64,000 nt of DNA. Source: Geminocystis sp. NIES-3709 (GTDB lineage: Bacteria > Cyanobacteriota > Cyanobacteriia > Cyanobacteriales > Cyanobacteriaceae). The DNA is taken from assembly GCF_001548115.1 (NCBI RefSeq), contig NZ_AP014821.1, positions 1,550,001 to 1,614,000 on the forward strand, in the 5' to 3' direction. The notes under the pieces are model-generated. The model saw nothing but the letters and a program-made list of their open reading frames with translations. It was not told where the DNA came from and searched no databases. The position numbers were made by a program, and so were the translations under genes. Of the stretch, positions 633 to 18,553 are shown piece by piece (within the stretch, counting starts at the first letter, position 1; each line of letters begins with the position of its first letter).

Positions 633-971
633 TCACCTAATTACATGAAATTCTGTTGTACCAAGTCCAAAACCATCAATTAAATTAGTTGCGATCGCAT
701 TTTTGCCATTTTCCATACAAGGAGTTATTTTGGCAAATAAGACATCACCTTCTTCAAAATATGTATAACCTCGTTTAACTTCGATATAAGGTTTTACTTC
801 CGCATCTGCAATAATTCCTCGTTTTTCATCTACTGCCGACATTGGCACAAATGTTGTCGGGGTTTTATCCTCTCTTTTTATATCACTTGGGCGACGAGGA
901 TTAATTTCACAAACATCAACTAATTTAACCCATTGCCAACCATCAGGTAACTTCTTATTATCCTTACTCAT
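633..971 (-). pseudogene. hsdS: Type I restriction-modification specificity subunit HsdS, 3'-truncated
   Basis: The 112 residues match the start of an HsdS target-recognition domain: LPDGWQWVKLVDVCEINPR, then a FVPMSAVDE segment and EGDVLFAKITPCMENGK, ending TTEFHVIR. Full HsdS proteins are about 400 aa with two target-recognition domains; this one stops inside the first, so it should not confer specificity. Its start codon overlaps the hsdR stop codon by 4 bp (ATGA), showing an original hsdR-hsdS operon. The sequence just past the stop runs into an ISAzo13 remnant, the probable agent of truncation. No hsdM is visible. Confidence 0.8.
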
Positions 972-3340
972 GCAGCAAATAACCTCATTTTAGTCTCTAA
1001 TAATATCTCTTTAGGATCGCCAAACTCTTTTAAAGCACCAATTCCCCCTGCTTTTTTCACCATTGGCAACTGAAATAATTTAGGGTTTTCTAGCTCTTCC
1101 GTACCATTTTGAGCAAATTGAGCCGTAATGGCTTTTATTGTCGCTACTGTGGCTTCTGGCATCATTTCTAACCATTTTTCTTGCTTATACTCAAAGGCTT
1201 CTGCCCGTTGTTTACGGGTGCGTAACTGAATACCATAACCCAATTCCCCTAAAATATCAAATAAATCATAGTCTTCCAACTCCGACACCGCTCTTAATAC
1301 TAGAGGCGATCGCCCCCCATCAGGTAAAATACTCATTAACTGATTACGACTATTAGGCTTAATCCAAATCTCTCGAAATAGAGCAATATTGGACACCTCC
1401 TCAATTAACCGTTTCCCTAATCTTTCTCGGTATTCCTCCACACTCACAGGAATTGTCTCACCATTTACCATCGTTAAAATGGACTTTTGCCCTGCGGTAA
1501 TGCGTACATCAAAACCTTCCACCGTAATAATTTTTTGAGATTCCACATTATAACTCCCCCCCTTCTCCTTAACTCGATCACTTGTCTTGTCATCCTTACG
1601 GGGAGATAACCTCGTCAAAAACTCCTCCCCAAATAAACGAGTCGCATTGGTATAGTCATAAACCCGAAACATCAACTTACCCGAAGGAGGATGTAACCTT
1701 GTACCCCTACCAATCATCTGATAAAAAGTGAGGGGCGATCGCATATAGCGGAAAAAAACAATATTTTCCAACGGAGGCACATCCACCCCAGTCGTCAACA
1801 AATCCACGGTAGTAGCGATAAAATGACTTCTCGAAGACTCCTTTAAATCTGGTAAATAATCATTACCCGAATTTTTTGCCGTACATTTAAAAGCATAATC
1901 AGACAAAAGTTGACGGTTATTTTGACCACACCAATCAACATAAATATTATTCATAGTAATAGCCACCTCATCAGCGTGTTTATCACTAACACAGAAAATA
2001 ACAGTCTTTTGCTCTGGTTTGCCCCTTTGTACTAAAGCCGAGAATAAATCTTGACACATCACTAAAACCCTATCAGGAAGCTCAATGCGACGCTCATAGC
2101 TAGTACACTCATAACGCTCTCGAATCTCCTCCTCCGTGACGGGTTGCCCTGTAATACTATCCACAGGATTCCGTGCCAAAATCTCCTCAATAGTTATACC
2201 CGTATAATCTAAATTGATGTTACGAGGGTGAATGGAACAAACCGCTAAATAACCATCTTCAATACCCTGACCAATATCATACTCATAAACAGGCTCACCA
2301 AAATAACGTACATTATCCGCCGTAATCTGTAAATCTTCCCTCACTTCGGGAGTGTCTTCGGTAGTCTCTAACTTACGGGGAGTGGCAGTTAAACCGATTT
2401 GCACCGCATCAGGATTACGAGTTAACACTAATGACCATTTACCCCACGCCGATCTATGACACTCATCTATAATGATATGACTGAAGTAATTTTCGGGATA
2501 ATGATTAACTAAGAAATTACCTGTTCCTTCATCGGTATCAACATCTAAAGTTTGATAAGTAGCCACTAAAATCCGTGCATTTTTCTGAGGATTCTTACCC
2601 GACACCACCGCCACATCGTCCCCAAAAATACCCTTTAACGCCGCACTAGCTTGATCCCTTAATTCCGTTCGATCGCAAATAAATAAAGCCCGTCTTAACT
2701 GTCCAGCATCTGCTATACGACATAGAATTTGAGTTGCAATATAGGTTTTACCCGCTCCAGTTGCTAAACTTAATAAAGCCCTTAAAGCCTCATTACTCTC
2801 ATGACAAGAAGCAATCTTCTCGAATACCGCTCGAATTGCCGCATCTTGATAATATCGTCTTGACGCTTCCCCACCACGATAGGGAGTTAATAACGGTTTC
2901 GCTATTTCTGCATTTAACTTAAAACCCTTGTGTTGTTCATATCTAGCTTGTAAATCTTGGGGAGTAGGAAACTGACTCAACGGTTTAGGTTTACTGGTTT
3001 TTCCCGTAAATGCGTCATATTCGACAAATAAATGACCATTGGAACTATAAACAAAAGGCACATTAGACAACTTGCCATAACGCTTTACTTGTTCTAAACC
3101 CTGATTTGGCGGTGCATATTCCGCCTTCGCTTCGATAATTGCCACCGCTAGAGGTTGAGTGGTATCGGACAATCTTAACCTTAAAATATAGTCAACTCTA
3201 CCCTTACCCAATTTACGGGGTCGATCGTCAATAATAACGATACTTCCTGCCGTTTCCTCTCTACGAATATGATTTTCCGTCCATCCCCTTCGATGTAAAC
3301 TCGGATCAATTAACTTAGCTCTAGTTTCTGCTTCATTCAT
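968..3340 (-). CDS. hsdR: Type I restriction enzyme HsdR (endonuclease/translocase subunit)
   Basis: A 790-aa HsdR of the EcoEI type. The N-terminal nuclease domain shows the PD-(D/E)xK pattern (D50, E70-x-K72 in AIIEAKAE). It is followed by the superfamily 2 helicase motor with Walker A ATGAGKT (193-199), motif II DECH (292-295), motif III TATPR (about 318) and a C-terminal helicase lobe with an IGRGTR motif. With HsdM and HsdS it would translocate along and cut unmodified foreign DNA. The gene overlaps cvkR upstream and hsdS downstream by 4 bp each, so all three are probably translated from one mRNA. It is intact, but the truncated hsdS and the missing hsdM suggest the restriction system is not functional from this locus. 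It appears to be cargo of the CAST element. Confidence 0.9.
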   Translation of the reverse strand: MNEAETRAKLIDPSLHRRGWTENHIRREETAGSIVIIDDRPRKLGKGRVDYILRLRLSDTTQPLAVAIIEAKAEYAPPNQGLEQVKRYGKLSNVPFVYSSNGHLFVEYDAFTGKTSKPKPLSQFPTPQDLQARYEQHKGFKLNAEIAKPLLTPYRGGEASRRYYQDAAIRAVFEKIASCHESNEALRALLSLATGAGKTYIATQILCRIADAGQLRRALFICDRTELRDQASAALKGIFGDDVAVVSGKNPQKNARILVATYQTLDVDTDEGTGNFLVNHYPENYFSHIIIDECHRSAWGKWSLVLTRNPDAVQIGLTATPRKLETTEDTPEVREDLQITADNVRYFGEPVYEYDIGQGIEDGYLAVCSIHPRNINLDYTGITIEEILARNPVDSITGQPVTEEEIRERYECTSYERRIELPDRVLVMCQDLFSALVQRGKPEQKTVIFCVSDKHADEVAITMNNIYVDWCGQNNRQLLSDYAFKCTAKNSGNDYLPDLKESSRSHFIATTVDLLTTGVDVPPLENIVFFRYMRSPLTFYQMIGRGTRLHPPSGKLMFRVYDYTNATRLFGEEFLTRLSPRKDDKTSDRVKEKGGSYNVESQKIITVEGFDVRITAGQKSILTMVNGETIPVSVEEYRERLGKRLIEEVSNIALFREIWIKPNSRNQLMSILPDGGRSPLVLRAVSELEDYDLFDILGELGYGIQLRTRKQRAEAFEYKQEKWLEMMPEATVATIKAITAQFAQNGTEELENPKLFQLPMVKKAGGIGALKEFGDPKEILLETKMRLFAA

Positions 3341-3810
3341 TTCCTTGTCAACAAAGGTTTTTTTTTAGGAGTTAAAACGAGGGATAAACCTTCAATCAGC
3401 CTTTGATTAACATTCTCCGTCCATAACAGAAGAACACTCTCACCCCTTGATAAAGCCTGAGTAATTTCAATGGGAGAAAGATGTTTGAGAGTAAAACCCT
3501 TTTCGGGATCTGGACACAGAGTATATTTGAGAGGGGAAAAATCCAGAGGATCTTTCATAAATTCTTCATGACGCTCTTTAAATTCATTTAATATCTGACA
3601 ACAAATTTGAAAGTCCAATCCCATATCTAACAGATAACCCATTAAGGCTAACTGCCATAACTCACACAGAGAATAATAGACATTGTGACCACTACCTTCA
3701 GTGTTAACAGTTGGCACGATAATATCCTTCTTACGCCAGTATTCCACCTGACGATAAGTTAATCCTGCAATGGTTGCCGCTTCTTTGCTAGTAAAAAACT
3801 GTTTATCCAT
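3337..3810 (-). CDS. cvkR: MerR-type CAST regulator, CvkR-like (Cas V-K repressor)
   Basis: 157 aa from the ATG at 3810. An in-frame start 51 nt further upstream is less likely because it would overlap the promoter region. The N-terminus is a MerR winged helix-turn-helix (FTSKEAATIAGLTYRQVEYWRKK), followed by a GHNVYYSLCELWQLALMG segment and an effector/dimerisation region. Position and divergence from cas12k match the published CvkR repressors of V-K CASTs, which repress cas12k and tnsB and are translated from leaderless mRNA. Here a TACAAT -10 box (3823-3818) lies about 7 nt before the ATG, also predicting a leaderless transcript. Its stop overlaps the hsdR start by 4 bp, so restriction cargo is transcribed with the regulator. 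A generic IS607-like MerR protein was considered, but the neighbours argue against it. Confidence 0.85.
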   Translation of the reverse strand: MDKQFFTSKEAATIAGLTYRQVEYWRKKDIIVPTVNTEGSGHNVYYSLCELWQLALMGYLLDMGLDFQICCQILNEFKERHEEFMKDPLDFSPLKYTLCPDPEKGFTLKHLSPIEITQALSRGESVLLLWTENVNQRLIEGLSLVLTPKKKPLLTRK

Positions 3811-3901
3811 AATCATTATTGTACAACTTGAAGACAATATTTTCTCAATCAACTTTATCAAAACCTTGACAATTAGAAAAACAATATGTTATTTTAAAGT
3901 T
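3811..3901. promoter_or_regulatory. Divergent cvkR/cas12k promoter region with CvkR-type operator
   Basis: For cas12k (+): -35 TTGACA at 3866-3871 and -10 TATTTT at 3890-3895 (18-bp spacing), which puts the start site at or next to the ATG at 3902. For cvkR (-): -10 TACAAT at 3823-3818, 7 nt from the ATG. The interval 3878-3892 reads AAAACAATATGTTAT, which fits the reported CvkR consensus AnnACATnATGTnnT with one mismatch. Its AACA/TGTT arms form an inverted repeat. It lies between the cas12k -35 and -10, an ideal position for blocking RNA polymerase. The consensus is recalled from the literature and binding here is inferred. Confidence 0.7.
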
Positions 3902-5725
3902 ATGACAATTAAAACTATTTGTTGCCAGTTAATCGCCCCTGAACAAACCCGCCAAAGGCTCTGGCAATATATGGCGGAACAATATACCCCACTGATGACA
4001 GAATTGATAAGACAAGTGGGGGAGCATCCTGATTTGTCTCAATGGCAGGATAAGGGAAAGATGCCCTCTAATATTGTCAAGGATTTATGTGCTACTCTTA
4101 AACAAATTCGACCCTTCACAGGATTACCAAGTAATTTTTATCAATCAGCTATTAATCAAGTTAATTATATCTTTGCTTCTTGGTTAGCGTCACAACATAA
4201 GCTCAAGCTGAGACTCAATGGTAAACGCTATTATTTTTCTATGCTTTACAGTGACCAAGATTTAGTCAAAAATAGCGGACATACCTTAACTGAAATTCGC
4301 TCTCAAGCTCAGATAATTCTCAACCAAATATCTAATAAAAAGACAGAAGAAAAGCATAAGTATTTATTTCAACACCATCGTGAAAGCAGTAACATTTTAG
4401 GAAAGACGGCTATCACTTATTTAATCAAGCATAACCAGAAGATACCAACTGAACCTGAGCATAGGGATAAATTTGAGAAACTTTACCGTAAGACGCAGAT
4501 ACAAATAGAAAAACTAGAAAAACAGATTGAAGCAAGACTACCGAAAGGAAGAAATTTAAGTGAGCAACAATGGTTAAATACTCTTATCACTGCTTCTCAA
4601 AATGTACCCAAAGATGAAAATGAGGCTAAATTATGGCAGAAGTATATCCTTACAGATAGTAATTCTTTGCCTTATCCAGTCAGTTATGAAACTAATGAGA
4701 ATCTTGTCTGGAGTCTTGACGAGCAAGGGCGTTTGAATCTTCGCTTTAATGGACTAGGCAAATTAACTTTTAAGGTTTATTGCGATAACAGACAGTTACA
4801 TTATTTCCAACAGTTTCTTCAGGATCAAACTATCAAGAAGAGTGGTAAGAATAAGCATTCTAGCGGTTTGTTCCTATTACGTTCGGCTATGTTAGTCTGG
4901 AAACCCAATGAGAGTAAGGGTAAATCATGGAATAAGAATACTTTACACCTTCATTGTGCTATTGATACTCGTTTATTAACCCTTGAAGGTACACAGGAGG
5001 TTCGAGAGGAGAAACTAACTCAAGTTACTAATATTATCCAAAGTATGGAGAAGAAACCTTCTCTCAATGATAATCAAAAGCAGTGCCTTAAACGGAAAAA
5101 GACCAGTCAGAAGAACTTACATGAGTCTTTCCTTCGCCCTAGCAGGGCAAAATATCAAGGAAATCCTAATATTATCGTGGGGGTGGCTTTAGGCTTAAAA
5201 CATCCTGTGACGGTTAGTATTGTTGATATGGCAACCCAGAAGGTTATTGCTTATCGTAGTACTAAACAGTTATTGGGCAAGAATTATAAGTTGCTGAACC
5301 GTTATAAGGTACAAAAGCAACGTCAAGCCCATCAGCGTCATGTGAATCAACGGCAATCTTCATCTGTTTCTTTTGGTGATTCTAATCAGGGAAAATATCT
5401 TAATGATTTATTGGTTGGTGCTGTGATGGATTTAGCCACTCAATATCAAGCAGGAAATATTGTTCTTCCTAAATTAGACCATATCCGAGAGATTGTTGAG
5501 AGTGAAATAAAGGTTAAGGCTGAGAAAAAGATTCCCTTATCGGTCGATCTTCAGAAGAAGTACGCTAAAACCTATCGTATGAGCGTTCATCAATGGGGTT
5601 ATGGTCTTTTCATCGATGGTCTTCAAAATCAAGCCAAGAGACTTTCTATATCCATAGAGGAGAGAAAACAACCTATAAGGGGTAGTCCTCAAGAGCAATC
5701 TAGGGATTTAGTTTTGGGTAAATGA
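3902..5725 (+). CDS. cas12k: Cas12k, RNA-guided target-binding protein of a V-K CAST
   Basis: 607 aa from the ATG at 3902, chosen because MTIKTICCQLIAPEQTRQ aligns with the start of known Cas12k proteins; an in-frame ATG at 3770 would run through the promoter and cvkR. Recognisable Cas12k blocks follow: TPLMTELIRQVGEHPDL, GLPSNFYQSAINQVNYIFASW, a degenerate RuvC-I region (NIIVGVALG, about 421-429), NIVLPKLDHIRE (about 518) and the HQWGYG and KQPIRGSPQE blocks (about 562 and 589). The RuvC acidic residues are absent, as in the family, so it binds but does not cleave DNA and recruits TnsC/TniQ/TnsB for insertion. It ends about ten residues after KQPIRGSPQE, so it is somewhat shorter than the 639-aa Scytonema protein. 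The tracrRNA follows immediately. Confidence 0.93.
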   Translation: MTIKTICCQLIAPEQTRQRLWQYMAEQYTPLMTELIRQVGEHPDLSQWQDKGKMPSNIVKDLCATLKQIRPFTGLPSNFYQSAINQVNYIFASWLASQHKLKLRLNGKRYYFSMLYSDQDLVKNSGHTLTEIRSQAQIILNQISNKKTEEKHKYLFQHHRESSNILGKTAITYLIKHNQKIPTEPEHRDKFEKLYRKTQIQIEKLEKQIEARLPKGRNLSEQQWLNTLITASQNVPKDENEAKLWQKYILTDSNSLPYPVSYETNENLVWSLDEQGRLNLRFNGLGKLTFKVYCDNRQLHYFQQFLQDQTIKKSGKNKHSSGLFLLRSAMLVWKPNESKGKSWNKNTLHLHCAIDTRLLTLEGTQEVREEKLTQVTNIIQSMEKKPSLNDNQKQCLKRKKTSQKNLHESFLRPSRAKYQGNPNIIVGVALGLKHPVTVSIVDMATQKVIAYRSTKQLLGKNYKLLNRYKVQKQRQAHQRHVNQRQSSSVSFGDSNQGKYLNDLLVGAVMDLATQYQAGNIVLPKLDHIREIVESEIKVKAEKKIPLSVDLQKKYAKTYRMSVHQWGYGLFIDGLQNQAKRLSISIEERKQPIRGSPQEQSRDLVLGK

Positions 5726-5779
5726 ATATTATTTCCGTTCTATTTGCTCATTTTTGTACCTTGACAATTTGATTACATA

Positions 5780-5990
5780 ATAGCACCGCAGTTTATGTTC
5801 TTTGAACCTCTGTGCTGTGTGAAATGTGGGTTAGTTTGTCTTCGGACTTGCTTTCTGACCCTAGTAGCTGTCCACCCTGATGCTGTTTATCTCACGATAA
5901 AGAATAAGGTGCGCACCCAGTAATAGGGGTATAGGTTTACTATAGTGGTGGCTACTGAACCACCTCCGACCAAGGAGGAATCCACTTCAG
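5780..5990 (+). ncRNA. tracrRNA of the V-K CAST
   Basis: Sequence blocks match the known Scytonema V-K tracrRNA in order: TAATAGCACCGCAG, GGGTTAGTTTG, CTTGCTTTCTGACCC, TAGCTG, CACCCTGATGCTG, AGGTGCGCACCCAG, GGCTACTGAACCACC, then hairpin CCTCC (5963-5967)/GGAGG (5974-5978), then the anti-repeat AATCCAC at 5979-5985. The 5' stem pairs GCAC with GTGC. A TACATAAT -10-like box precedes it at 5774-5781. The anti-repeat is perfectly complementary to GTGGATT of the delocalized repeat (6443-6449). The 3' end is approximate, and tracr and array may be one transcript. Confidence 0.88.
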
Positions 5991-6061
5991 ATAGTTCTCA
6001 TTTATAATCCCTCGCAAACTGCTTCTAGGATTTAGTCTTAGCAAAGGTTTCAAAAAGGGGG

Positions 6062-6393
6062 GTTGCAGATGAATTTACTTCTCTGTGCGATCGAAAGTTA
6101 GTTTATAATAAGCACCTGCTTGGGTAACTACTCCGTTGCAGATGAATTTACTTCTCTGTGCGATCGAAAGTAGTTATTTCACCATCGGCACGAATAGGGA
6201 ATTGATAAGTTGCAGATGAATTTACTTCTCTGTGCGATCGAAAGCTATTGTTACAACGAAAAAAGACTAAAAAAACTACAGAGTTGCAGATGAATTTACT
6301 TCTCTGTGCGATCGAAAGGAAAGTTCTTTTACTTCCTTTTATATAATGAGTTCCCCAGTTGCAGATGAATTTACTTCTCTGTGCGATCGAAAG
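6062..6393 (+). CRISPR. CRISPR array, 5 repeats and 4 spacers (type V-K)
   Basis: Five identical 36-bp repeats start at 6062, 6135, 6209, 6283 and 6358. Each begins GTTGCAGATG and ends GCGATCGAAAG, the GAAAG terminus typical of V-K repeats. The four spacers are 37, 38, 38 and 39 nt (6098-6134, 6171-6208, 6245-6282, 6319-6357). The array lies about 70 bp beyond the tracrRNA on the same strand. No cas1/cas2 adaptation genes are present, as is usual for V-K loci. None of the spacers has an obvious match elsewhere in this window. Confidence 0.97.
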
Positions 6394-6442
6394 GATCATT
6401 ATAAGACTGCAAAATACAAAAATAGCTATAATAGATATATAT

Positions 6443-6471
6443 GTGGATTGAAAGAGGTCACGAGTTCAATC
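6443..6471 (+). ncRNA. Delocalized homing crRNA with 17-nt spacer against tRNA-Thr
   Basis: A shortened atypical repeat GTGGATTGAAAG (6443-6454) is followed by the spacer AGGTCACGAGTTCAATC (6455-6471). The spacer is identical to 17 nt of the tRNA-Thr gene on the minus strand (6637-6621), where it is preceded by GTG (6640-6638), a GTN PAM as used by Cas12k. The match ends exactly at 6471, where the terminal repeats begin. A TATAAT box at 6427-6432 may give it its own promoter. Short delocalized guides that home V-K CASTs to tRNA genes have been described (Saito and colleagues, 2021). Confidence 0.93.
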
Positions 6472-6477
6472 ATAAAA

Positions 6478-6569
6478 TGACATTTAATTTGTTAACGATG
6501 ATTCAGCGACAGGAATTTGTTAAGACGACAATTAATTCGTTAAGATGACAGATAAAATGTTATTCGACA
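6478..6569 (-). repeat. CAST terminal repeats (TnsB-binding-like) and tRNA-proximal transposon end
   Basis: Read inward from 6569 on the minus strand, TGTC recurs at 6569, 6550, 6530, 6511 and 6482. Units 2 and 3 read TGTCATCTTAACGAATTAAT and TGTCGTCTTAACAAATTCC. About 20-bp units of this form, starting with a terminal TGT, are typical of V-K CAST ends bound by TnsB. The outer end (6569/6570) lies 68 bp from the PAM edge, or about 63 bp if a 5-bp target duplication (6570-6574) is discounted. That fits the roughly 60-66 bp spacing known for the Scytonema system. The TSD cannot be verified because the other end is absent. Confidence 0.8.
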
Positions 6570-6607
6570 ATACCTGTAATTTACCATTGCAAGGACATTC
6601 ACACGAA

Positions 6608-6679
6608 AGCCTTTGACGAGGATTGAACTCGTGACCTCACCCTTACCAAGGGTGTGCTCTACCACTGAGCTACAAAGGC
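6608..6679 (-). tRNA. trnT-GGU: tRNA-Thr (GGT), CAST target site
   Basis: The acceptor stem pairs GCCTTTG (6679-6673) with CAAAGGC (6615-6609). The anticodon loop reads CTTGGTAA with anticodon GGT, the T arm contains GTTCAATC, and no CCA is encoded. It is separated by 2 nt from tRNA-Tyr upstream, so both are probably processed from one transcript. Its T-arm region (6621-6637) is the protospacer of the CAST homing guide. The gene remains intact because insertion occurs past its 3' end. Confidence 0.95.
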
Positions 6680-8090: not shown

Positions 8091-8172
8091 GTAATTTAGT
8101 CCCTAAGAGAGATTTTTACTATTGGTTTCCGTATAATAATAAATTACACAGTGGGTTATTGTGGTTAATTTT

Positions 8173-8270
8173 TAACTCCTAACTCCTAACTCCTAACTCC
8201 TAACTCCTAACTCCTAACTCCTAACTCCTAACTCCTAACTCCTAACTCCTAACTCCTAACTCCTAACTCC
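8173..8270. repeat. Heptamer tandem repeat, 14 copies of TAACTCC
   Basis: Fourteen perfect head-to-tail copies of TAACTCC (98 bp) end 4 bp before the start codon of the serine hydrolase gene at 8275. Short tandemly repeated heptamers (STRR) are known in cyanobacterial intergenic DNA. Perfect copies suggest recent expansion by slippage. Copy number may vary between strains and would change the leader of the downstream gene, which has no Shine-Dalgarno sequence of its own. Confidence 0.97.
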
Positions 8271-8274
8271 TAAA

Positions 8275-9422: not shown

Positions 9423-10487
9423 ATGAACAAAGTTAGCAGAAGATTATTCTTAGGAGCTGGCGGTGCTTTAGGAGCAGTAGCTTTAGCAGAATTTACCGGC
9501 GTAAAAACTTCTTTTGCCCAAAGGGGACAACAGATTAATTTATATTCATCTCGTCACTACAATACAGATAACAGATTATATACAGATTTTCAAAAACAAA
9601 CAGGAATTAAAGTCAACTTAATTGAAGGAAAAGGAGAGGAGTTATTAGAAAGAATTAAAAGTGAGGGACGTAACTCTCCTGCGGATATTTTTTTGACAGC
9701 AGATGTAGGAAATATTTGGCAAGCACAACAGGCAGGTATTTTTTCTCCAGTTAATTCTTCTACTTTAAATCAAAGGATCCCGGCAAATCTTCGAGATACA
9801 TCCAAAAATCAATGGTTTGGATTTAGTACAAGAGTTCGAGTCATTATGTACAGAAAAGGAAAAGTTAACCCTAGTCAATTATCTACCTATCAAGATTTAG
9901 CTAATCCTAAATGGCGTGGGAAATTGATTATGCGTACTTCTACCAATATCTATAATCAATCTTTAACTGCATGGCTTTTGGGTATTGATGGACAAGCAAA
10001 AACTGAACAATGGGCAAAGGGTATTGTAGCTAATTTCGCCCGTAAACCTCAAGGGGGCGATCGAGATCAGTTTGAAGCTGTAGCAGCTGGTATTGCAGAT
10101 CTAACTGTTGCAAATACATATTATTTAGCCGGTTATGCTAATTCTACCGATGCTAAAAAGAAAGAAATATTTAGTAAAATAGGAGTGTTTTTCCCCAATC
10201 AAGGTAAAGGACAAAGTGGAGCTTTTTCTAATATTAGTGGTGGTGGAGTGTTAAAAAATGCACCGAATAGAGCAGGGGCAATCAAGTTCTTAGAATATTT
10301 AACCAGTCCTAGTGCTCAAAATTATTTTGCCAAAGGAAACTTTGAATATCCTGTAGTCAAAGGTGCACAAATTGATCCTGTATTAAAGAATTTTGGTACA
10401 TTTAGATCTTCTTCTAGTTCTTTAACTGGAGTCGGCCCTAATTTAGCTAATGCAGTTAAAATACTTGATCGAGCAGGTTGGAAGTAA
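9423..10487 (+). CDS. futA: Iron(III) ABC transporter substrate-binding protein, FutA-like
   Basis: 354 aa with a twin-arginine signal (SRRLFLGAGGALGAVALAEF, about 5-24) and a likely cleavage region near SFAQ. The mature part opens INLYSSRHYNTDNRLYTDF, the hallmark of FutA1/FutA2 ferric-binding proteins of Synechocystis, where Tyr residues bind iron. It would bind Fe(III) in the periplasm for FutB/FutC or protect against iron excess. The transporter subunits are not adjacent. The gene is preceded by an AT-rich 218-bp gap and stands alone. Which Fut paralogue it corresponds to is not settled. Confidence 0.9.
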   Translation: MNKVSRRLFLGAGGALGAVALAEFTGVKTSFAQRGQQINLYSSRHYNTDNRLYTDFQKQTGIKVNLIEGKGEELLERIKSEGRNSPADIFLTADVGNIWQAQQAGIFSPVNSSTLNQRIPANLRDTSKNQWFGFSTRVRVIMYRKGKVNPSQLSTYQDLANPKWRGKLIMRTSTNIYNQSLTAWLLGIDGQAKTEQWAKGIVANFARKPQGGDRDQFEAVAAGIADLTVANTYYLAGYANSTDAKKKEIFSKIGVFFPNQGKGQSGAFSNISGGGVLKNAPNRAGAIKFLEYLTSPSAQNYFAKGNFEYPVVKGAQIDPVLKNFGTFRSSSSSLTGVGPNLANAVKILDRAGWK

Positions 10488-10691
10488 ATTTTAGAGTAGG
10501 GGAGAAAATATAAAAATTAAACATTCTTATTCTCTCCTAAGTTCAGACGCATCTGAGTAAAATGTTGAGCATCGGCAATAGGTAAGAGTAAACCGTAAGT
10601 CAATGTTCGGAATTTACTAAAGTTTTTTTTGTCAAGTATTTGCAATATTTCGTTACATTAGAAGAGTAACAAATCAAGAAAAAAATAAACT

Positions 10692-10862
10692 ATGTACACT
10701 ACCATCAACGAAGAAGGAACTCTCAATAATTATGCCCGTGAACCCCAGATGTACTATAGTAATTATCCATCTCCAGAACAGCAACGTAATTATCTCAAAT
10801 GGGGAACTCTTGCATTATTACTATTAACTTCCTTACTGTTAACAACTTTAGCAGTTAGTTAA
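10692..10862 (+). CDS. psb34: Psb34 / Ssl1498-family light-harvesting-like protein
   Basis: A 56-aa protein. The N-terminus MYTTINEEGTLNNYAREP is characteristic of the ssl1498 (Psb34) family, and a single C-terminal membrane helix (about residues 36-55, WGTLALLLLTSLLLTTLAV) follows. In Synechocystis Psb34 associates with photosystem II assembly intermediates and competes with high-light-inducible proteins for CP47. It sits a few hundred bases from psbA, a fitting context. The start is unambiguous. Confidence 0.88.
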   Translation: MYTTINEEGTLNNYAREPQMYYSNYPSPEQQRNYLKWGTLALLLLTSLLLTTLAVS

Positions 10863-11136
10863 AAATAATTACTGATTAAAACGAGAATGAAAAATTTTTG
10901 TAAGGATTGAAAATTAAAGATTTTTCGTTCTCCGTTGACAGTATCAAGCCGACTTAATGGCTAAGTAAACTAAGACGGATTTAACTTTTAAGAAACAGAT
11001 TGGGGAGACGAGGAATTAGAAACAAGGAATAAGTAGATCTCATTTTCGTTATTACACTAGAGTTTCTAAATTTTGATAGTCAATATTTTTTCTCCTACAA
11101 CTATCATGGATTTCTTAAATTTTAACGCAAACACCA
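10863..11136. other. Intergenic region between psb34 and psbA
   Basis: About 270 bp of AT-rich sequence between the convergent genes psb34 and psbA. Apart from the psbA terminator at its right edge I see no reading frame with coding character, no repeat family member and no RNA motif I can name. Confidence 0.5.
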
Positions 11137-11170
11137 AAAAGCACCCCCTAAATTAATAGAGAGTGCTTTT
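11137..11170 (-). terminator. Rho-independent-like terminator of psbA
   Basis: AAAAGCAC (11137-11144) pairs with GTGCTTTT (11163-11170) across an 18-nt loop. On the minus strand the stem ends in a short run of T. It lies 29 bp beyond the psbA stop codon. Confidence 0.75.
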
Positions 11171-11198
11171 CAGTTATTATTTTATTTAATAATCAAAC

Positions 11199-12266
11199 TT
11201 AACCGTTGATTACAGGAGCAGATACAGGCTCTGCACTTGCTAAATCTAAGGGGAAGTTGTGAGCATTACGTTCGTGCATTACTTCGATACCGATGTTTGC
11301 ACGGTTTAATACGTCTGCCCAAGTTCCAATTACATGACCTTGGCTATCTAAGATAGATTGGTTGAAGTTGAAACCGTTTAAGTTGAATGCCATGGTACTT
11401 ACACCCATTGCGGTGAACCAAATACCAATGACAGGCCATGCACCTAAGAAGAAGTGTAACGCACGGCTATTATTGAAGGACGCATATTGGAAGATTAAAC
11501 GACCAAAGTATCCATGAGCCGCTACGATGTTGTAGGTTTCTTCTTCTTGACCGAATTTGTAACCATAGTTTTGAGACTCGGTTTCGGTGGTTTCACGAAC
11601 TAAAGAAGAAGTTACGAGAGAACCGTGCATTGCGGAGAATAAAGAACCACCAAACACACCTGCTACTCCTAACATATGGAAGGGGTGCATTAAAATGTTA
11701 TGCTCTGCTTGGAACACGAACATGAAGTTAAAGGTTCCAGAGATTCCTAAAGGCATACCATCAGAGAAGGAACCTTGACCGATGGGGTAGATTAAGAATA
11801 CTGCGCTTGCAGCAGACACAGGTGCTGAGTAAGCAACACAGATCCAAGGACGCATACCTAAGCGGAAAGATAATTCCCACTGACGGCCCATGTAGCAGAA
11901 GATTCCGATTAAGAAATGGAATACTACTAATTGGTAAGGACCACCGTTGTATAACCACTCATCTAAAGATGCTGCTTCCCAAATGGGGTAGAAGTGTAAA
12001 CCAATAGCGTTGGAAGAAGGAACAACCGCACCAGAGATGATGTTGTTACCGTATAACAAAGATCCAGCTACAGGCTCACGAATACCGTCAATGTCAACGG
12101 GAGGAGCTGCGATAAAGGCGATAATAAAACAAGTGGTAGCAGTTAAGAGGGTAGGGATCATCAAAGTACCGAACCAACCTACATATAAGCGGTTGTTGGT
12201 AGAAGTGATCCACTGACAAAACTGCTCCCAAGTGGAAGACTGTTGTTGTTGTAAAGTGGTAGTCAT
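11199..12266 (-). CDS. psbA: Photosystem II D1 protein, PsbA
   Basis: 355 aa with five membrane helices and the full D1 signature. Highlights are [20 protein letters not shown], the [10 protein letters not shown] region with the YZ tyrosine further on, and the [19 protein letters not shown] iron/QB region. Gln occupies the position equivalent to residue 130 (YMGRQWE), which marks a D1:1-type form. The carboxy end [13 protein letters not shown] precedes a 12-residue extension ([12 protein letters not shown]) that CtpA would remove before assembly of the Mn cluster. The extension is shorter than the usual 16 residues. D1 is the reaction-centre subunit in the thylakoid membrane. No other psbA copy is in the window. 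Confidence 0.99.
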
Positions 12267-12331
12267 CTTTTTATGATTTCTTTATTTGTGTATGATATTT
12301 TCGAGGTACGAATTAAGCGATTTCTCACTAT

Positions 12332-12367
12332 AGTTATTATATTAAAGGATATATAAAGTTTTGTCAA
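12332..12367 (-). promoter_or_regulatory. psbA promoter
   Basis: On the minus strand TTGACA (12367-12362) and TAATAT (12344-12339) are separated by 17 bp, a consensus-type sigma-70 promoter. The start site is expected near 12332. This gives a leader of about 65 nt, rich in A/T, before the ATG at 12266. Spacing and position suit a strong light-driven psbA promoter. The start site is inferred. Confidence 0.7.
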
Positions 12368-12509
12368 GTTTTTTCATAATTTTTTTTGAAATTCTTATTT
12401 AAGTGACAAAAAAGAATCTATAGAAAGGCAAAAGTCTTATCCATAGAGGGTTATATTATCAAAATTAATTTTAATTTAATTTAAACTTTTGTGATTTTTG
12501 AGAAAATTT

Positions 12510-13217
12510 TTAAGTGAAGTTGAGTAGTCTGTGAAATTCTGATTTGACAAATTTATAACATTCACAAGCAGTGGATTCGAGAATAATTCTTTCTAATATG
12601 GTTATATGTCCCCTTGTATAACGGATTATACCGGCTTTTTGAAACTTTTGAGCTACTTCAGTAACGCTCGATCGTCTAACTCCTAACATTTGGGCAATAA
12701 ATTGTTGAGTTAAGGGTAATTCATCTTGATTAACAGAATCATGGGCAAATAATAACCAACAAGCAAATTGTTTGTCAATGGAATGATGACATTTACAGAC
12801 AGCATTTTGAGATATTTGAGTCAGTCGAGCTTGAGTATATAATAATAATATTCGCTGAAGTTCTCCCGATCGATGAGATTCAGTTAAAAATATTTTAGCA
12901 TCCAATTTCATGGCACTATCAGGAATTTGTACGATCGTATCACTGGTGGCATGATTTCCCCCTAAAAATACAGGAAGTCCCACAAATCCTTCATTTCCGA
13001 TTAAACCAATCTCAGTGGTGCTTTTATCCGATAGAATTGACACCAGAGAAATCATAGAATGTAGGGGAAAATAAACATATTCAATTTCCTGATGTAGCTT
13101 ATAAATCACTTGCCCTGATGTTAAAGAAACATTTTCCAGATTGAAAAATAGTATTTTATATTCATCTTGAGATATGGACGCTAGTATTTGATTCTCTAAA
13201 ATTTTATTATTTCTCAC
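12510..13217 (-). CDS. Crp/Fnr-family transcriptional regulator
   Basis: 235 aa. The N-terminal cyclic-nucleotide-binding-like beta-barrel includes VYFPLHSMISLVS and the phrase STTEIGLIGNEGFVGLPVFLGG. The C-terminal winged helix includes LTQQFIAQMLGVRRSSVTEVAQKF as the recognition region. The barrel lacks the canonical RxS cAMP phosphate cassette, so the ligand is unknown. It is a close paralogue of the interrupted regulator at 15011-16866. The two sit on either side of a diguanylate cyclase gene, all on the minus strand, suggesting a local duplication. Confidence 0.85.
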   Translation of the reverse strand: MRNNKILENQILASISQDEYKILFFNLENVSLTSGQVIYKLHQEIEYVYFPLHSMISLVSILSDKSTTEIGLIGNEGFVGLPVFLGGNHATSDTIVQIPDSAMKLDAKIFLTESHRSGELQRILLLYTQARLTQISQNAVCKCHHSIDKQFACWLLFAHDSVNQDELPLTQQFIAQMLGVRRSSVTEVAQKFQKAGIIRYTRGHITILERIILESTACECYKFVKSEFHRLLNFT

Positions 13218-13310
13218 TATAATTTGAAGCTAGTATATTTTATACTAACTGATAAAGATGGGAGACAGAGTTTTTTTACAAAGGATTAGGACTTTTTTGT
13301 TAAACTTTTA

Positions 13311-14804
13311 TTAATAAGGATATATAGAAAAAAGTTCTCCGTTGGATTTTGCTTGATACATCGCCATATCTGCATTAGATAAAAGATTAGATAAATTAGA
13401 GGTTTTTGAATCACCAATGACAATACCAATACTGACATTAATCATGATTTTTTTTTCACTAACATGAAAACAAGTAGATAATGATTTTTGTATGCGATAA
13501 GCACAATCTTTGGCTTCTTGGGAAGAATTAATATGACTTAAAACTATCATAAACTCATCACCACTTAATCGAGCTACATGATCAATATTTCTCACACAAG
13601 TTATTAATCGTTTCGCCAAAGTAATTAAAACTTTATCTCCTATTAAATGACCAAAAGTATCATTAATGTCCTTGAATTTGTCAATATCTAAAAATAAAAC
13701 GGCAAATCTACTACTATGATTTTTTTCTTCTTGATTAAGAATCTTTTGCAAAAACTCTAATAATGAGCGACGATTAGGTAAATCTGTAAGAGAATCATAA
13801 CGGGATTGATGGAAAAGTTCATTTTGAGTTTGTTGTAATTTAGTTACGTCATGAAGGGATAAATGCCATCCAATAATATCATTCTCCAAATTTTTGATGT
13901 TTGATGCTTTAATACTGACGATAATAAAAGACTCATCCGGCAGTGAGAATTTTAGGGAGAAAAAAGATTGTGTTTTGTCTGGATTTATTTCGTTGTTGAA
14001 TGATTGAAGAAAATCTAAAAACTTTGCTAAACTATGAGGGCTAATAAACCAGTTTAAAGATTTATTTATTAATTTTTCTCTGGGAGTTTTAAACAAATTT
14101 ACCGCACTATCATTGATAACTCTAATAATGCCATCTTTATCGAGGATTAAACAGCTATCAGGAGAGAATAAGAATAAATTTTCATAGTATTTTTTCTTAA
14201 CTTCAATATCCCATAAATTTTCCCATATTTGTTGATTTTCTAACCGTAAATCTTCTATATCATTATCAATAGTTAACGAAGGGGGATTTATATATTGAAA
14301 ATCGAAAGTTATACCTTCAGCTTTTTCTTCTATCAAATCTTCAATATAACCACTACAATTTTCTTTGGCTTCCCATAAGTTATCAAAAGAGCCAAAATAA
14401 TAAGTCATATCAGGTTTAATGGTATCAATTCTAATCCACCATGATAGTTGAGCAGTCTTAGCTAAAGCGTTTTCTTTAGGGTGATAGTCGGGGTTATGAG
14501 TAAGATTAAACTGATTATATTCTTCAACAATATGGGATATTTGTTCATTAATTTTTGCTGTAATTAGTAATTTTTCTTCTAGCAAACCAATACAAAAACT
14601 AATATCATCTACAAAACTATGACATTCATCAATGAGAATATGATTATTGGGAATATTATTGAGTACTTTTGCGATTAATTTTTGACGAAAATAGGGAAAA
14701 GATAACGCTTGTCGATAAGGGTGATCGATCGTATAATCTTTTAAAAACTGATCGACTTCTGTTTTGACAATGGATAAAGTAGAATTAAAAACTTGATAAG
14801 ACAT
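13311..14804 (-). CDS. PAS-GGDEF diguanylate cyclase
   Basis: 497 aa from the ATG at 14804, preferred over an upstream ATG at 14855 because a strong Shine-Dalgarno sequence (GGAG) precedes it. The N-terminal 200 residues are helical and unassigned. A PAS domain follows (about 205-320, LFLFSPDSCLILDKDGIIRVIND). The C-terminal GGDEF domain has RYDSLTDLPNRRSLL and the active-site variant SGDEF, so it probably makes cyclic di-GMP. I do not see a clear RxxD inhibitory site. A candidate regulator binding site lies about 175 bp upstream. Confidence 0.87.
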   Translation of the reverse strand: MSYQVFNSTLSIVKTEVDQFLKDYTIDHPYRQALSFPYFRQKLIAKVLNNIPNNHILIDECHSFVDDISFCIGLLEEKLLITAKINEQISHIVEEYNQFNLTHNPDYHPKENALAKTAQLSWWIRIDTIKPDMTYYFGSFDNLWEAKENCSGYIEDLIEEKAEGITFDFQYINPPSLTIDNDIEDLRLENQQIWENLWDIEVKKKYYENLFLFSPDSCLILDKDGIIRVINDSAVNLFKTPREKLINKSLNWFISPHSLAKFLDFLQSFNNEINPDKTQSFFSLKFSLPDESFIIVSIKASNIKNLENDIIGWHLSLHDVTKLQQTQNELFHQSRYDSLTDLPNRRSLLEFLQKILNQEEKNHSSRFAVLFLDIDKFKDINDTFGHLIGDKVLITLAKRLITCVRNIDHVARLSGDEFMIVLSHINSSQEAKDCAYRIQKSLSTCFHVSEKKIMINVSIGIVIGDSKTSNLSNLLSNADMAMYQAKSNGELFSIYPY

Positions 14805-14974
14805 GACTTTTATCTCCTTTATTAGAAAAGCGATCGAAAATTTATTTAATAGCAATTCTCAGACTGAAAAGTTACAAAGTTCTTAGTTTTATATGTTAGG
14901 TAAACTAGAAAGATACACTTCATAAATCTAGGAAATGCTATAACTCGATCGTAGCGATTTTTTCTCAATTCGTC

Positions 14975-14996
14975 GGTACGTTATAGTACATTGTTA
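14975..14996 (-). promoter_or_regulatory. Candidate operator upstream of the GGDEF gene (copy 1 of shared motif)
   Basis: On the minus strand: TAACAATGTAC, a 3-nt core (TAT), then AACGTACC. The GTAC half-sites make an interrupted palindrome. A 22-bp counterpart differing at three positions lies at 16922-16943, upstream of the interrupted Crp-like gene. Its position 171 bp before the GGDEF start makes a regulatory role plausible. Function is inferred. Confidence 0.45.
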
Positions 14997-15010
14997 TATT
15001 TTCTTAATCT

Positions 15011-15701
15011 TTAGCCTCGACGAGATCCAAGTAACCGCATAAATTCATCTTGCACTACTCGATAACATTCACAGGAAGTTTCTTCTAGTTGTTTGTGATC
15101 CAGAATGACTATTCTCCCACGGTTATAACGGATGATACCTCTATTTTGTAAAGTATTGGCGGCAATAGTAACTCCCGCACGACGCACACCTAACATATTA
15201 GAAATAAATTCTTGGGTTAACTCTAATTCATTAGTCAAAACACAATCATATACTGATAATAACCATCGAGCTAATCTTGCTTCAATTTTGTGTTGTCGAT
15301 TACAAGCGGCACTTTGGGCAATTTGTGTTAATCGGGCTTGGGTATGGAGAAGTAATATTTTTTGTAATGCACCACCTTCTTTAAATTCACGAACTAATAT
15401 ACTGGATTTCATTTTTAGGCTTTTTCCCGACATTTGTACGATCGCGCGACTGATAGTAAACTCGCCACCTAAAAATACTGGTAATCCGATCATTCCTTCA
15501 TTCCCGATTAAACCAATTTCTGTAGTTGATCCATTTTCCATGATAGAAACTAAAGAAATCATTGCTGTTAGAGGAAAATAGACTACTTGAATAGGCTCAT
15601 AGGCTTCATGTAAAATTGTGCCGGAAGTTAAGGTAACTTCTTGTAAATGTGGCGCGATTTTTTCAAATTCAGACTCCGATAAAGTGCGAAGTAACTTATC
15701 A
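15011..15701 (-). pseudogene. Crp/Fnr-family regulator interrupted by an IS element (main part)
   Basis: The reading frame continues upstream of the internal ATG at 15562 through LLRTLSESEFEKIAPHLQE and VTLTSGTILHEAYEPIQVVYFPLTAM, to the IS boundary at about 15701. On the far side of the IS the minus strand encodes INKNSISLNRS in a compatible frame (about 16866-16837), probably from a TTG start near 16869. The regulator was therefore split after roughly a dozen codons. The remaining part keeps the barrel and the HTH (LTQEFISNMLGVRRAGVTIAA). Initiation at 15562 would remove much of the sensory domain, so the product is probably non-functional. Confidence 0.8.
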
Positions 15702-16836
15702 GACCTCTTGCAAAATTAAATACGAGATAGGATTAACCAGAATAATCTATAATTTTGGGCGATGGAGGATACCTTAAGTATAAGATTTAATTATGAAACT
15801 TGAGAGAATAAAAAAATTAAAGCCAGAAAAGTTTAAAAGGAGATTTGGAGTAAAAAAAGAAACCTATAATCTTTTAGTAGAAATAGTCAAAAAAGAACAA
15901 AACAATCACAAAAGAGGAAGGAAAAGCAAATTAACAGTGTCCGAGCAGATTTTAGTAACCTTGGAATATTTGAGAGAATATCGAACTTATTTTCACATAT
16001 CAGAGTACTGGAATATCTCAGAATCAACGGTTTGTAGAACAGTTCATAAAATTGAAAAAATCTTGCTCAAATCAGGTTATTTTTCCCTAGGTGGTAAAAA
16101 AGAATTGATAAAAAAAGAGAATGAAATTAAGGCAGTATTAATAGATGTTACTGAAATAGCAATCGAAAGACCAAAAAAAAGACAAAAAATTTACTATAGT
16201 GGCAAAAAGAAGGAACATACATTTAAAGCACAATTAGTAGTTAATAAAGATACCTTGGAAATAATTTGTTATGTAAATGGACGAGGAAGAGAACATGATT
16301 TTAAAATTTTTAAAAACAGTAGATTACCATTAAGTGAAAAAATAAAGTGTTTAGTAGACAAAGGTTATCAAGGTATAGAAAAAATTCATAAATTAAGCGA
16401 AATACCAAAAAAGAAAACAAAAAAAAGAAAGTTAACCCAAGAAGAAAAAAGAAAAAATAGAGAGTTAAATCGACAAAGAATCGTAATTGAACATGTAAAT
16501 AGAAAACTTAAAATATTTAGAATACTATCAGAAAAATATAGAAATAAAAGAAAAAGATTTGGGTTAAGATTCAACTTAATTGCGGGAATTTATAACTATG
16601 AAATAGTGAAAAAAGACATAGCTATTATTTAAGAACTATATTAAAGAATCCAGTAAATTAATTTGTGTATTTTATCGCCAATGGGTATTTACTTTCCTAG
16701 GTTGAGAATTATATAAGCAAGAATTATGATTAACTGTATAAAGGCACTTATTTTCTTTAATTAAATTAAAGGCGATTGCTAATATTTTGTCTTATCCTAT
16801 CATCTTTTTATGTTCATTATAATTTTGCAAGAGATC
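15702..16836 (+). mobile_element. IS5-type insertion sequence
   Basis: 1135 bp bounded by 17-bp inverted repeats, left GACCTCTTGCAAAATTA (15702-15718) and right complement GATCTCTTGCAAAATTA (16836-16820), with one mismatch. It contains one transposase gene. A target duplication is not clear at this resolution. It splits a Crp-like gene, whose frame is recoverable when the element is removed. Confidence 0.85.
15793..16632 (+). CDS. IS5-family transposase (DDE_Tnp_4 type)
   Basis: 279 aa, basic and Lys-rich. The N-terminal helix-turn-helix region (SEQILVTLEYLREYRTYFHIS, then SESTVCRTVHKIE) is followed by an RNase-H-like DDE domain: VLIDVTEIAI (first D), LVDKGYQGIEK (second D) and NRQRIVIEHVNRKLK (E). 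It would catalyse cut-and-paste transposition of the surrounding element. It is intact and unframeshifted, so the element may be active. Its A-rich base use differs from the flanking genes. Confidence 0.88.
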   Translation: MKLERIKKLKPEKFKRRFGVKKETYNLLVEIVKKEQNNHKRGRKSKLTVSEQILVTLEYLREYRTYFHISEYWNISESTVCRTVHKIEKILLKSGYFSLGGKKELIKKENEIKAVLIDVTEIAIERPKKRQKIYYSGKKKEHTFKAQLVVNKDTLEIICYVNGRGREHDFKIFKNSRLPLSEKIKCLVDKGYQGIEKIHKLSEIPKKKTKKRKLTQEEKRKNRELNRQRIVIEHVNRKLKIFRILSEKYRNKRKRFGLRFNLIAGIYNYEIVKKDIAII

Positions 16837-16921
16837 TATTGAGGGAAATTGAATTTTTATTAATCAAAGTGTAAAAAAAAACTTGCTATTAATAACAATT
16901 ATATAAAATTACTTTCTTGTC

Positions 16922-16943
16922 TGTACGTTACCGTACATTGTTA
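16922..16943 (-). promoter_or_regulatory. Candidate operator upstream of the interrupted Crp-like gene (copy 2)
   Basis: The plus-strand core TGTACGTTACCGTACA is a perfect 6-bp-arm palindrome. The 22-bp segment matches 14975-14996 at 19 positions. It lies about 55 bp before the probable start of the split regulator. Crp-family proteins bind such interrupted palindromes, so autoregulation is a reasonable inference. Confidence 0.45.
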
Positions 16944-16949
16944 ATAATT

Positions 16950-18482
16950 TTAAAACATTTTCCACCAACGACGACTACCATCAGGTAAAATAGTATTCCA
17001 ATTTACCTTAGCAGATTTTAATTGTTGTTGATTTACCTTGGCATTTTTTAGATTTGCACCACATAAATTAGCATTAGTTAAATTAGCATTGGTTAAATCT
17101 GCACTTCCTAAATTTGCCCCCTTTAAATCGGCGTTTTCCAAATTGCTTTTAGAAAAATAAGTTTGCACTAAATTAGTATTGGTTAAGTCGGCATTACTTA
17201 AGTCTGCACCATAAAAATTAGCTTGAGATAAACTTGCTTCTGTAAAAATAGCTCCTTGTAACTGAGAATAACGAAAAATACATTTATTTAATTTACCACC
17301 CACTAAGTTTAACCCTTGTAAATTTTGATCACTAAAATCTTTTTTACCGTTGTTAAAAGCTGTGAGAAATTTTTCTGTATCCCATTTAATAGATGCTATC
17401 TTATTGGCATTATTACTCTTTCTGTCTTGAATTGCCTTTTCTAGTCTTGCAGTTGCGGATAAAGTTTGGCTTAACTGACTATTGGTTGCATCAGCCATTG
17501 TCACATCCCCCATGTTGGAATCTTTCACATTATGTTGAGAGGAGGGAGTCTTATTAATATTTTGACTTAAACTTTGTTGAAAGGGTTGGAGATTAAGGGC
17601 TTCAATTAATTCATCGACAGTTTTATAACGTTCTTTGGTATCTTGTGCTAACATTTTGTCAATAACTTTAGTTAACGCTGAACTGATGTTAACATTTTCT
17701 TGCCAGAGTAATTTTCCTGTATCTGGATCGATCGCAAAATTTTTCGGAGATTTACCCGTTACCAAATAAACACAAGTTGCCCCTAAAGCAAAAATATCAC
17801 TAGAATAAATAGGACGCATAGCTAATTGTTCAGGGGGTGCATAACCCATTGTACCGACGGAAAATTTAGTTAAGGCTGTTTGTCCAAAAGTTTTTGCTAA
17901 TTGGGTGTTAACTTGATCTTTTACTGCTCCAAAATCAATTAATACTAACTTTTCATCTTTTTTTTGTCGTAAGATATTCGCTGGTTTAATATCTCTGTGA
18001 ATAACTCTTTCCGAGTGTAGATACTTAAGAATGGGAGTGATGTCTTCTAAAAAGCGTCTTAAAGCTAATTCTCCATAAACTCCTGTGGTTTTGACTTCTC
18101 TTTGTAAATTTTGACCATTAATTAATTCTTGAATTAGATAAAATCGATCGTTATCAACAAAGTAATCCATTAATTTAGGAATTTGAGGATGATTAATTTT
18201 ACCTAAAGTTTTGGCTTCTCTTTCAAACAAACTAATAGCGGTATTTACGGCTTGAGCATCTTCTGCCATAGGTCGTAACTGCTTAATTACACATAGAGGA
18301 TTACCTACCACTGTTAAGTCAACTCCAACAAAAGTCGCTCCAAAACCCCCTTTTCCTAACATTTTAATAGCCCGATAACGATGGTTAAGGATTAAATTAG
18401 AACCACAAGCATTACATTGTTTTAATTTTGGGTGATTTTTGGGTTCACTACAATCAGGATTTACACAGTAGCTAATAATCAT
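16950..18482 (-). CDS. SpkB-like Ser/Thr protein kinase with pentapeptide repeats
   Basis: 510 aa. A zinc-ribbon-like Cys motif opens the protein (C6, C11, C23, C26). The kinase domain runs about 34-300 with GKGGFGATF, the catalytic loop VIHRDIKPANIL, DFG in LIDFGAVKDQ and an APPEQ activation-segment motif. A linker follows, then about 15 pentapeptide repeats of the A(D/N)Lxx type (about 395-490). The layout is that of Synechocystis SpkB, linked to oxidative stress and motility. A paralogue lies immediately upstream in the same direction, separated by a heptamer repeat, so the pair is a tandem duplication. Confidence 0.9.
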   Translation of the reverse strand: MIISYCVNPDCSEPKNHPKLKQCNACGSNLILNHRYRAIKMLGKGGFGATFVGVDLTVVGNPLCVIKQLRPMAEDAQAVNTAISLFEREAKTLGKINHPQIPKLMDYFVDNDRFYLIQELINGQNLQREVKTTGVYGELALRRFLEDITPILKYLHSERVIHRDIKPANILRQKKDEKLVLIDFGAVKDQVNTQLAKTFGQTALTKFSVGTMGYAPPEQLAMRPIYSSDIFALGATCVYLVTGKSPKNFAIDPDTGKLLWQENVNISSALTKVIDKMLAQDTKERYKTVDELIEALNLQPFQQSLSQNINKTPSSQHNVKDSNMGDVTMADATNSQLSQTLSATARLEKAIQDRKSNNANKIASIKWDTEKFLTAFNNGKKDFSDQNLQGLNLVGGKLNKCIFRYSQLQGAIFTEASLSQANFYGADLSNADLTNTNLVQTYFSKSNLENADLKGANLGSADLTNANLTNANLCGANLKNAKVNQQQLKSAKVNWNTILPDGSRRWWKMF

Positions 18483-18492
18483 AGGTTAATCA

Positions 18493-18530
18493 TTGATAAT
18501 TGATAATTGACAATTGATAATTGATAATTG
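18493..18530. repeat. Heptamer tandem repeat, 5 copies of TTGATAA
   Basis: Five copies of TTGATAA (the third is TTGACAA) plus a partial sixth occupy most of the 71-bp gap between the two kinase genes. This is an STRR-type repeat with the same 7-bp period as the one at 8173-8270 but a different sequence. Confidence 0.85.
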
Positions 18531-18553
18531 TTACCTTTTTAATTACTCATTAA

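Follow-up and report, generated by a model that had tools for sequence, protein, structure and literature searches.

Fused tracrRNAs as likely natural single guides for homing in type V-K CRISPR-associated transposons, and a non-autonomous relative beside tRNA-Thr in Geminocystis

Introduction

We analysed a 64,000-nucleotide (nt) stretch of the Geminocystis sp. NIES-3709 genome (the window; genome G000, contig C1), which holds the right-hand part of a type V-K clustered regularly interspaced short palindromic repeats (CRISPR)-associated transposon (CAST), here called the window element. A second V-K CAST, element 2, lies on the same contig. Taken alone, the window element belongs to a known kind and is in decay; the novelty lies in element 2 and in the fused guides of its relatives. 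We consider it likely that several V-K CAST lineages, element 2 among them, evolved a natural single-guide RNA that serves homing alone. A duplicated trans-activating CRISPR RNA (tracrRNA) would have been fused to the homing CRISPR RNA (crRNA), probably three times, and its repeat would afterwards have become a poor partner for the ordinary tracrRNA. There would thus be one guide for homing and another for array-guided jumping, served by one Cas12k, and recombination between the tracrRNA copies could delete the array, leaving elements that can only home. As for the window element, it is very likely a V-K CAST that inserted 68 bp from a protospacer in a transfer RNA (tRNA)-Thr gene by means of a delocalised crRNA and that is now non-autonomous; its Cas12k would form the sister branch, with moderate support, to a clade that contains element 2 and in which most guides are fused.

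Results

A tracrRNA copy joined to the homing spacer in element 2

As described in four papers (PMC9938897, PMC11406308, PMC8730458, PMC11656645), the homing guide of V-K CASTs is a truncated repeat followed by a spacer. The guide of element 2 is built otherwise. This element (C1:689556-699164, minus strand; 9557-19165 of the extracted locus L006) adjoins a tRNA-Arg gene and is compact, with open frames for tnsB, tnsC, tniQ and cvkR in addition to its own Cas12k. Its array, in which we count five repeats by eye, is followed by a second full-length copy of the tracrRNA. This copy runs through a junction hairpin (AATTCTC-TTT-GAGAATT) into GAAAG and then directly into the homing spacer (L006 9651-9903, minus strand), which matches the tRNA-Arg gene at 17 of 17 positions beside a GTT protospacer-adjacent motif (PAM). 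No matching 5-bp duplication was found at the ends of element 2 (AATCT on the left, TCAAT on the right). One of its cargo genes looks alkylsulfatase-like by eye.

The single-guide RNA is a design usually regarded as man-made, and the homing RNA of element 2 appears, from its sequence, to have the layout of a natural one. A literature search whose coverage left out some primary homing papers and preprints returned no report of a second, duplicated or fused tracrRNA with Cas12k, and titles on V-K CASTs were absent among the results listed by a search on natural single guides.

Fused guides among V-K loci

We screened for Cas12k in three overlapping genome sets, 386 from the phylum, 15 from the family and 388 from the order, and took 100 regions from among the matches listed. 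Together with the best 80 of 123 loci from a contig collection and the two of the Geminocystis genome, these gave 182 loci, which are not a random sample. Removal of 23 loci with an identical 600-nt stretch after cas12k and of 5 with short ends left 154, and a tracrRNA was matched in 147. Many first-pass loci showed a partial second tracrRNA hit; here one tracrRNA had been split between hits, which we merged.

A homing guide with an adjacent protospacer and a GTN PAM was present in 110 of the 147 loci; a slightly wider form of this search was positive in none of 115 block-shuffled loci. The distance from the tracrRNA core to the homing spacer, measurable in 83 loci, was 18-50 nt in 11, 81 nt in one and at least 212 nt in 71. 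Counting as fused any guide whose scaffold is joined to the spacer at most 50 nt from the conserved core, we obtained 13 fused guides among the 147 loci. The spacer matches an adjacent target with a GTN PAM in 11 of the 13, including element 2; in L033 and L045 the same junction is present and an adjacent protospacer was not found. Nine fused loci also encode a separate tracrRNA (L006, L014, L033, L042, L056, L057, L130, L132 and L155), and four contain the fused copy only (L021, L032, L045 and L186).

A fourteenth fused guide, L209, was seen outside the survey beside tRNA-Leu(TAG) in genome G056. This genome holds three related CAST guide loci: L209, the fused-only L032 at tRNA-Leu(GAG), and L033, which has both tracrRNAs and, by eye, a transposase-like gene within its array, and for which an adjoining tRNA was not found.

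Some candidates were set aside. TGAAAG follows the core in L020, L055, L070, L071 and L169, which we did not class as fused: the homing spacer lies at least 342 nt away or, in L071, was not found. In L163 the ordinary tracrRNA runs directly into an apparent first array repeat and the spacer is non-homing; it was not counted, and is possibly a fused guide for an array-type target. Nor was L059 counted, where the homing spacer begins 81 nt past the tracrRNA core. That spacer stands ahead of the array, and L059 and L115 each show weak partial second tracrRNA hits.

The fused scaffolds form three groups

In an IQ-TREE phylogeny of 34 chosen scaffolds, with support values taken at the group nodes, the fused scaffolds fall into three groups. 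Group A contains seven loci, all from the window's own family, the Cyanobacteriaceae (ultrafast bootstrap, UFboot, 100); group B contains four, including those of Prochloraceae MO_167.B51 and Xenococcus MO_188.B8 (UFboot 99); and group C contains two (UFboot 94). This arrangement suggests three origins of the fused scaffold. The fused scaffolds cluster with each other and not with the ordinary tracrRNAs of the elements they belong to, which suggests that each duplication predates the elements now bearing it. Members of one group share a conserved scaffold, but their spacers go with different tRNA genes: group A has Arg(TCT), Leu(GAG) and Arg(ACG); group B has Ser, Val, Asn and Arg; and group C has Thr and Phe.

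The homing repeat of fused guides pairs poorly with the ordinary tracrRNA

Where both copies are present (nine loci), pairing of the homing repeat with the ordinary tracrRNA has a median of -2.3 kcal/mol (range -6.5 to -1.1). The median for the same pairing in 71 ordinary loci is -14.1 kcal/mol, and 2 of these 71 are weaker than -6.5 (nominal p 2e-6, with about three independent cases once relatedness is considered). In 11 of the 13 fused loci, among them element 2, the junction hairpin is more stable than shuffled sequences, no more than 9 of 200 of which fold equally well; L057 and L186 do not share this property. TATAAT stands at the same offset before all five group A second copies, and the exact motif precedes none of the four other second copies. 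L032 and L045 are chimeric, their 5' end being that of an ordinary tracrRNA and the remainder that of a fused copy, as would be expected if recombination between two copies had deleted the array. We think that the fused RNA is functional, and we infer that it is expressed, binds Cas12k and serves in transposition.

The window element carries an ordinary homing guide

The guide half of the window element is intact. A tracrRNA up to its conserved 3' core occupies positions 5775-5983 (plus strand), with the antirepeat AATCCAC at its 3' edge. An Rfam scan of the window at gathering scores reached threshold for two tRNAs only and for no family at the tracrRNA, and for this reason we built our own profile. 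Trained on 94 tracrRNAs, none of which came from the window or from a fused-guide locus, it matched this stretch at 182.9 bits (E 1.6e-54), against a top score of 6.4 bits in 20 shuffled windows; the 94 sequences had first been found by profiles seeded with the window and element 2, so that this test is not wholly independent. The array (6062-6393, plus strand) has five identical 36-nt repeats, starting at 6062, 6135, 6209, 6283 and 6358, with four spacers between them and one after the last, and it has no match among 72,556 plasmid and 50,697 phage records. Downstream lies a 12-nt truncated repeat, R* (GTGGATTGAAAG, or GTGGATT-GAAAG; 6443-6454, plus strand), which pairs with the tracrRNA antirepeat at -9.0 kcal/mol. 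It is followed by a 17-nt homing (anchor) spacer (6455-6471, plus strand) that matches tRNA-Thr at 6621-6637 in all 17 letters beside a GTG PAM.

A TATAAT at 6427-6432 (plus strand), read from the sequence, is a possible -10 box for the homing unit. Of 98 ordinary homing units, 7 have an exact TATAAT 12-45 nt upstream of the spacer, a minority, and control stretches have none. A promoter scan made no call at the homing unit (13 hits overall against a shuffle mean of 10.4), and single-RNA folding gave moderate z-scores of -1.70 and -1.77.

The cas12k gene (3902-5725, plus strand) is an unbroken frame of 607 amino acids that scores 814 bits against NF038191 (NCBIfam V_Cas12k; cut-off 150) and matches Cas12k chains among solved structures, 7n3o being one of them, at E about 1e-178. 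A second copy of this Cas12k was not found in the genome, and it is 43% identical to the Cas12k of element 2. Divergent from it, cvkR (3337-3810, minus strand) encodes a MerR-type repressor of 157 amino acids (PF13411, MerR_1, 35.5 bits) that matches the CvkR structure 7xn2 (Alr3614; E 4.4e-24) and is 34% identical to the CvkR of element 2. In the cas12k promoter, 3878-3892 (plus strand) differs at one position from AnnACATnATGTnnT, the CvkR site motif as given in PMC9938897; as the chance expectation is 0.62, this candidate site is weak evidence by itself. A perfect copy of the motif stands upstream of the element's tnsB (L003 11807-11821; chance expectation 0.04).

These results bear out most of the original prediction, which had read from the window a MerR-type repressor divergent from cas12k, a five-repeat array, a delocalised crRNA with a tRNA target, and end repeats. 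The frame at 3902-5725 groups with Cas12k and not with TnpB. A tracrRNA, proposed at 5780-5990, is recovered by the V-K profile made here and by no Rfam family at threshold.

Ends, target site and broken transposition genes

The attachment site, tRNA-Thr(GGT), lies at 6608-6679 on the minus strand and is also an Rfam hit; the protospacer (6621-6637) and PAM (6638-6640) fall within it. The left end of the element, at C1:1525568, lies 24.4 kb outside the window on its left side and is identical to the 23-bp right inverted repeat (6547-6569, minus strand); the duplication ATACC (6570-6574, plus strand) recurs directly before the left end. From end to end the element spans 31,002 bp; its inverted ends are 23 bp long and its target-site duplication 5 bp. 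Its right end stands 68 bp from the PAM; PMC9938897 gives 46-82 nt for this distance in V-K CASTs, with one exception. In an empty-site comparison with ten relatives, the tRNA-Thr/Tyr pair, plsY and psbO are present in all ten, but the tRNA pair and psbO are distant in the six genomes that have both on one contig (about 550 kb in G185, for example), and the 520 bp left of the left end gave short piecemeal matches only. The evidence for insertion is thus that of the inverted repeats and the duplication.

The prediction also called for extending the contig leftward in search of tnsB, tnsC, tniQ and the other end. The end was found, and the genes proved to be damaged. An insertion sequence (IS) element of IS630 type interrupts tnsB, whose flanks align to residues 17-108 and 103-565 of element 2 TnsB with 43% and 55% identity. 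TnsC aligns to residues 2-200 of the 275 of element 2 TnsC (64% identity) and lacks the last quarter. For tniQ, element 2 TniQ gave no significant match in the window element (best E 0.57), and element 2 holds the sole PF06527 (TniQ) match of the genome. With tnsB split, tnsC shortened and tniQ not found, the element is a degenerate and not a complete V-K CAST; the tnsB and tnsC remnants stand in the usual order, which shows its descent. Its place as another family member thus stands, in reduced form: it is no longer self-sufficient, judging by its reading frames, and only the guide half is intact. The IS630-family gene (L003 12273-13268) has 19 matches in the genome, nine of full length; eight of the nine are shown as 100% identical, and one of these eight has a stop. 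The copy in tnsB is equalled exactly in score by two others, which suggests a recent break.

The cargo is restriction-related and in part broken. A type I restriction subunit R (968-3340, minus strand) scores 456.9 bits against NF046051, under its cut-off of 550, and 295.9 bits against PADLOC REase_I. A single open frame at L004 13136-14455 (minus strand) joins a fragment of a type I specificity subunit to a C-terminal fragment of DNA polymerase I and is probably a rearrangement scar. Elsewhere in the window, at about 8170-8273 between two genes, the seven-base unit ctaactc forms a head-to-tail run by eye.

In the Cas12k phylogeny, most members of the clade that includes element 2 have a tracrRNA copy fused to the homing spacer. 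L014, of group C, targets the same tRNA-Thr site as the window element with a fused guide, and the two spacers share 15 of 17 letters.

Functional guides or decaying remnants

Several observations weigh against the picture given so far. The fused loci are more often decayed: cas12k is unbroken, with a frame no shorter than 580 codons, in 7 of the 13, whereas 63 of the 71 ordinary homing loci have it unbroken. It is broken in L042, L045, L130, L132, L155 and L186. Among the transposition genes examined, TnsB is interrupted in L213 (the element of L130) and partial in L214 (that of L132); in L210 and L211 (the elements of L032 and L033) its first 47 residues lie in another frame and a 536-codon open frame is kept; and the TniQ match of L212 (the element of L042) is confined to residues 14-142. 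The second tracrRNA copy scores below the first in all five group A pairs. In the window element, the array repeat pairs with its own antirepeat at -5.2 kcal/mol, the fifth weakest of 91 such pairings (one of the four weaker, L054, has a misplaced core), and because of this weak pairing the array is possibly no longer used. The pairing of R*, at -9.0, is likewise exceeded by that of roughly nine in ten ordinary homing repeats (median -14.1, n=71). In the FastTree analysis the window Cas12k branches beside the group A clade, which includes element 2, as its sister with moderate support (0.845, midpoint rooting), the nearest Cas12k by branch length is that of L133, outside this clade, and L131, a member of it, gave no tracrRNA hit.

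One could argue from the cas12k counts, the lower scores of the second copies in group A, the two loci without an adjacent protospacer found (L033 and L045) and the two junctions of 13 that fold no better than shuffles that the second tracrRNA copy is a decaying duplicate, lying beside the homing spacer by accident, and that homing still uses the first tracrRNA. We find this improbable. The same junction recurs in 13 loci; scaffolds are conserved across three lineages while spacers track different tRNAs; the seven loci with unbroken cas12k (L006, L014, L021, L032, L033, L056 and L057) span all three groups; pairing between homing repeat and first tracrRNA is weak in the nine two-copy loci (median -2.3 kcal/mol, compared with -14.1 in the 71 ordinary loci); and four loci have the fused copy only. 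A dedicated single guide for homing remains our preferred reading of these loci.

The window element, for its part, might have lost its autonomy and still move, with TnsB, TnsC and TniQ supplied in trans by element 2, which has open frames for all three and whose proteins are related to the remnants (TnsB 43% and 55% over two parts, TnsC 64%). We regard this as unlikely, as the inverted repeats of the two elements differ, their Cas12k proteins are only 43% identical, and a second copy of the window Cas12k was not found in the genome. Alternatively, the guide half could have been kept after the loss of transposition as a DNA-binding device that blocks re-insertion or damps the tRNA-Thr gene. 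The intact Cas12k, tracrRNA, R* and spacer beside three broken or missing transposition genes, and the persistence of the protospacer in the tRNA gene, would fit such a role; the breakage can be recent, however, given the two other IS copies that score as the one in tnsB, and a close Cas12k relative for a selection test was not found. We consider this device very improbable. Under the homing insertion that we favour for the window element, the delocalised crRNA, with its short repeat and 17-nt spacer, would pair with the element's own tracrRNA and load Cas12k; as inferred from the family, Cas12k would open the tRNA-Thr gene, and TniQ, TnsC and TnsB would then have integrated the element. In the fused-guide clade the fused copy would act as the homing guide, and the first tracrRNA, where kept, would stay with the array.

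Discussion

Compared with AnCAST and ShCAST as described in PMC9938897 and PMC11406308, the window element has the same Cas12k, divergent CvkR, tracrRNA after cas12k and array, and likewise an R* of about 12 nt with a 17-nt spacer, a GTN PAM, a tRNA target and a PAM-to-end distance in range. It differs in being without working tnsB, tnsC and tniQ and in an array repeat that pairs poorly with the tracrRNA. Element 2 differs from both systems in having a full tracrRNA fused to the homing spacer in place of a bare R*.

An engineered ShCAST single-guide RNA served in reconstituted transposition (PMC9876797), which shows that Cas12k can function in vitro with a fused guide. Like that guide, the RNA of element 2 and its relatives would unite tracrRNA and crRNA in one molecule; unlike it, theirs is a fusion that arose in nature and would be devoted to the homing target. 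A natural single-guide RNA of Cas9, tracr-L, reportedly described by Workman in 2021, is reported to repress the cas promoter. It too is a natural tracrRNA with a spacer of its own, whereas the fused V-K RNA would point a transposon at a tRNA gene.

If true, this would partly answer how one Cas12k serves two pathways. In the fused lineages the homing guide looks private and self-contained, and it is probably independent of the tracrRNA used by the array. Natural single guides would also be on offer for V-K genome engineering. Ordinary, two-copy and fused-only loci, some of them within one genome, already provide a series in which the evolution of the guide could be tested, and the window element, with its ordinary R* and a Cas12k of the sister branch, is a candidate for the state before the fusion.

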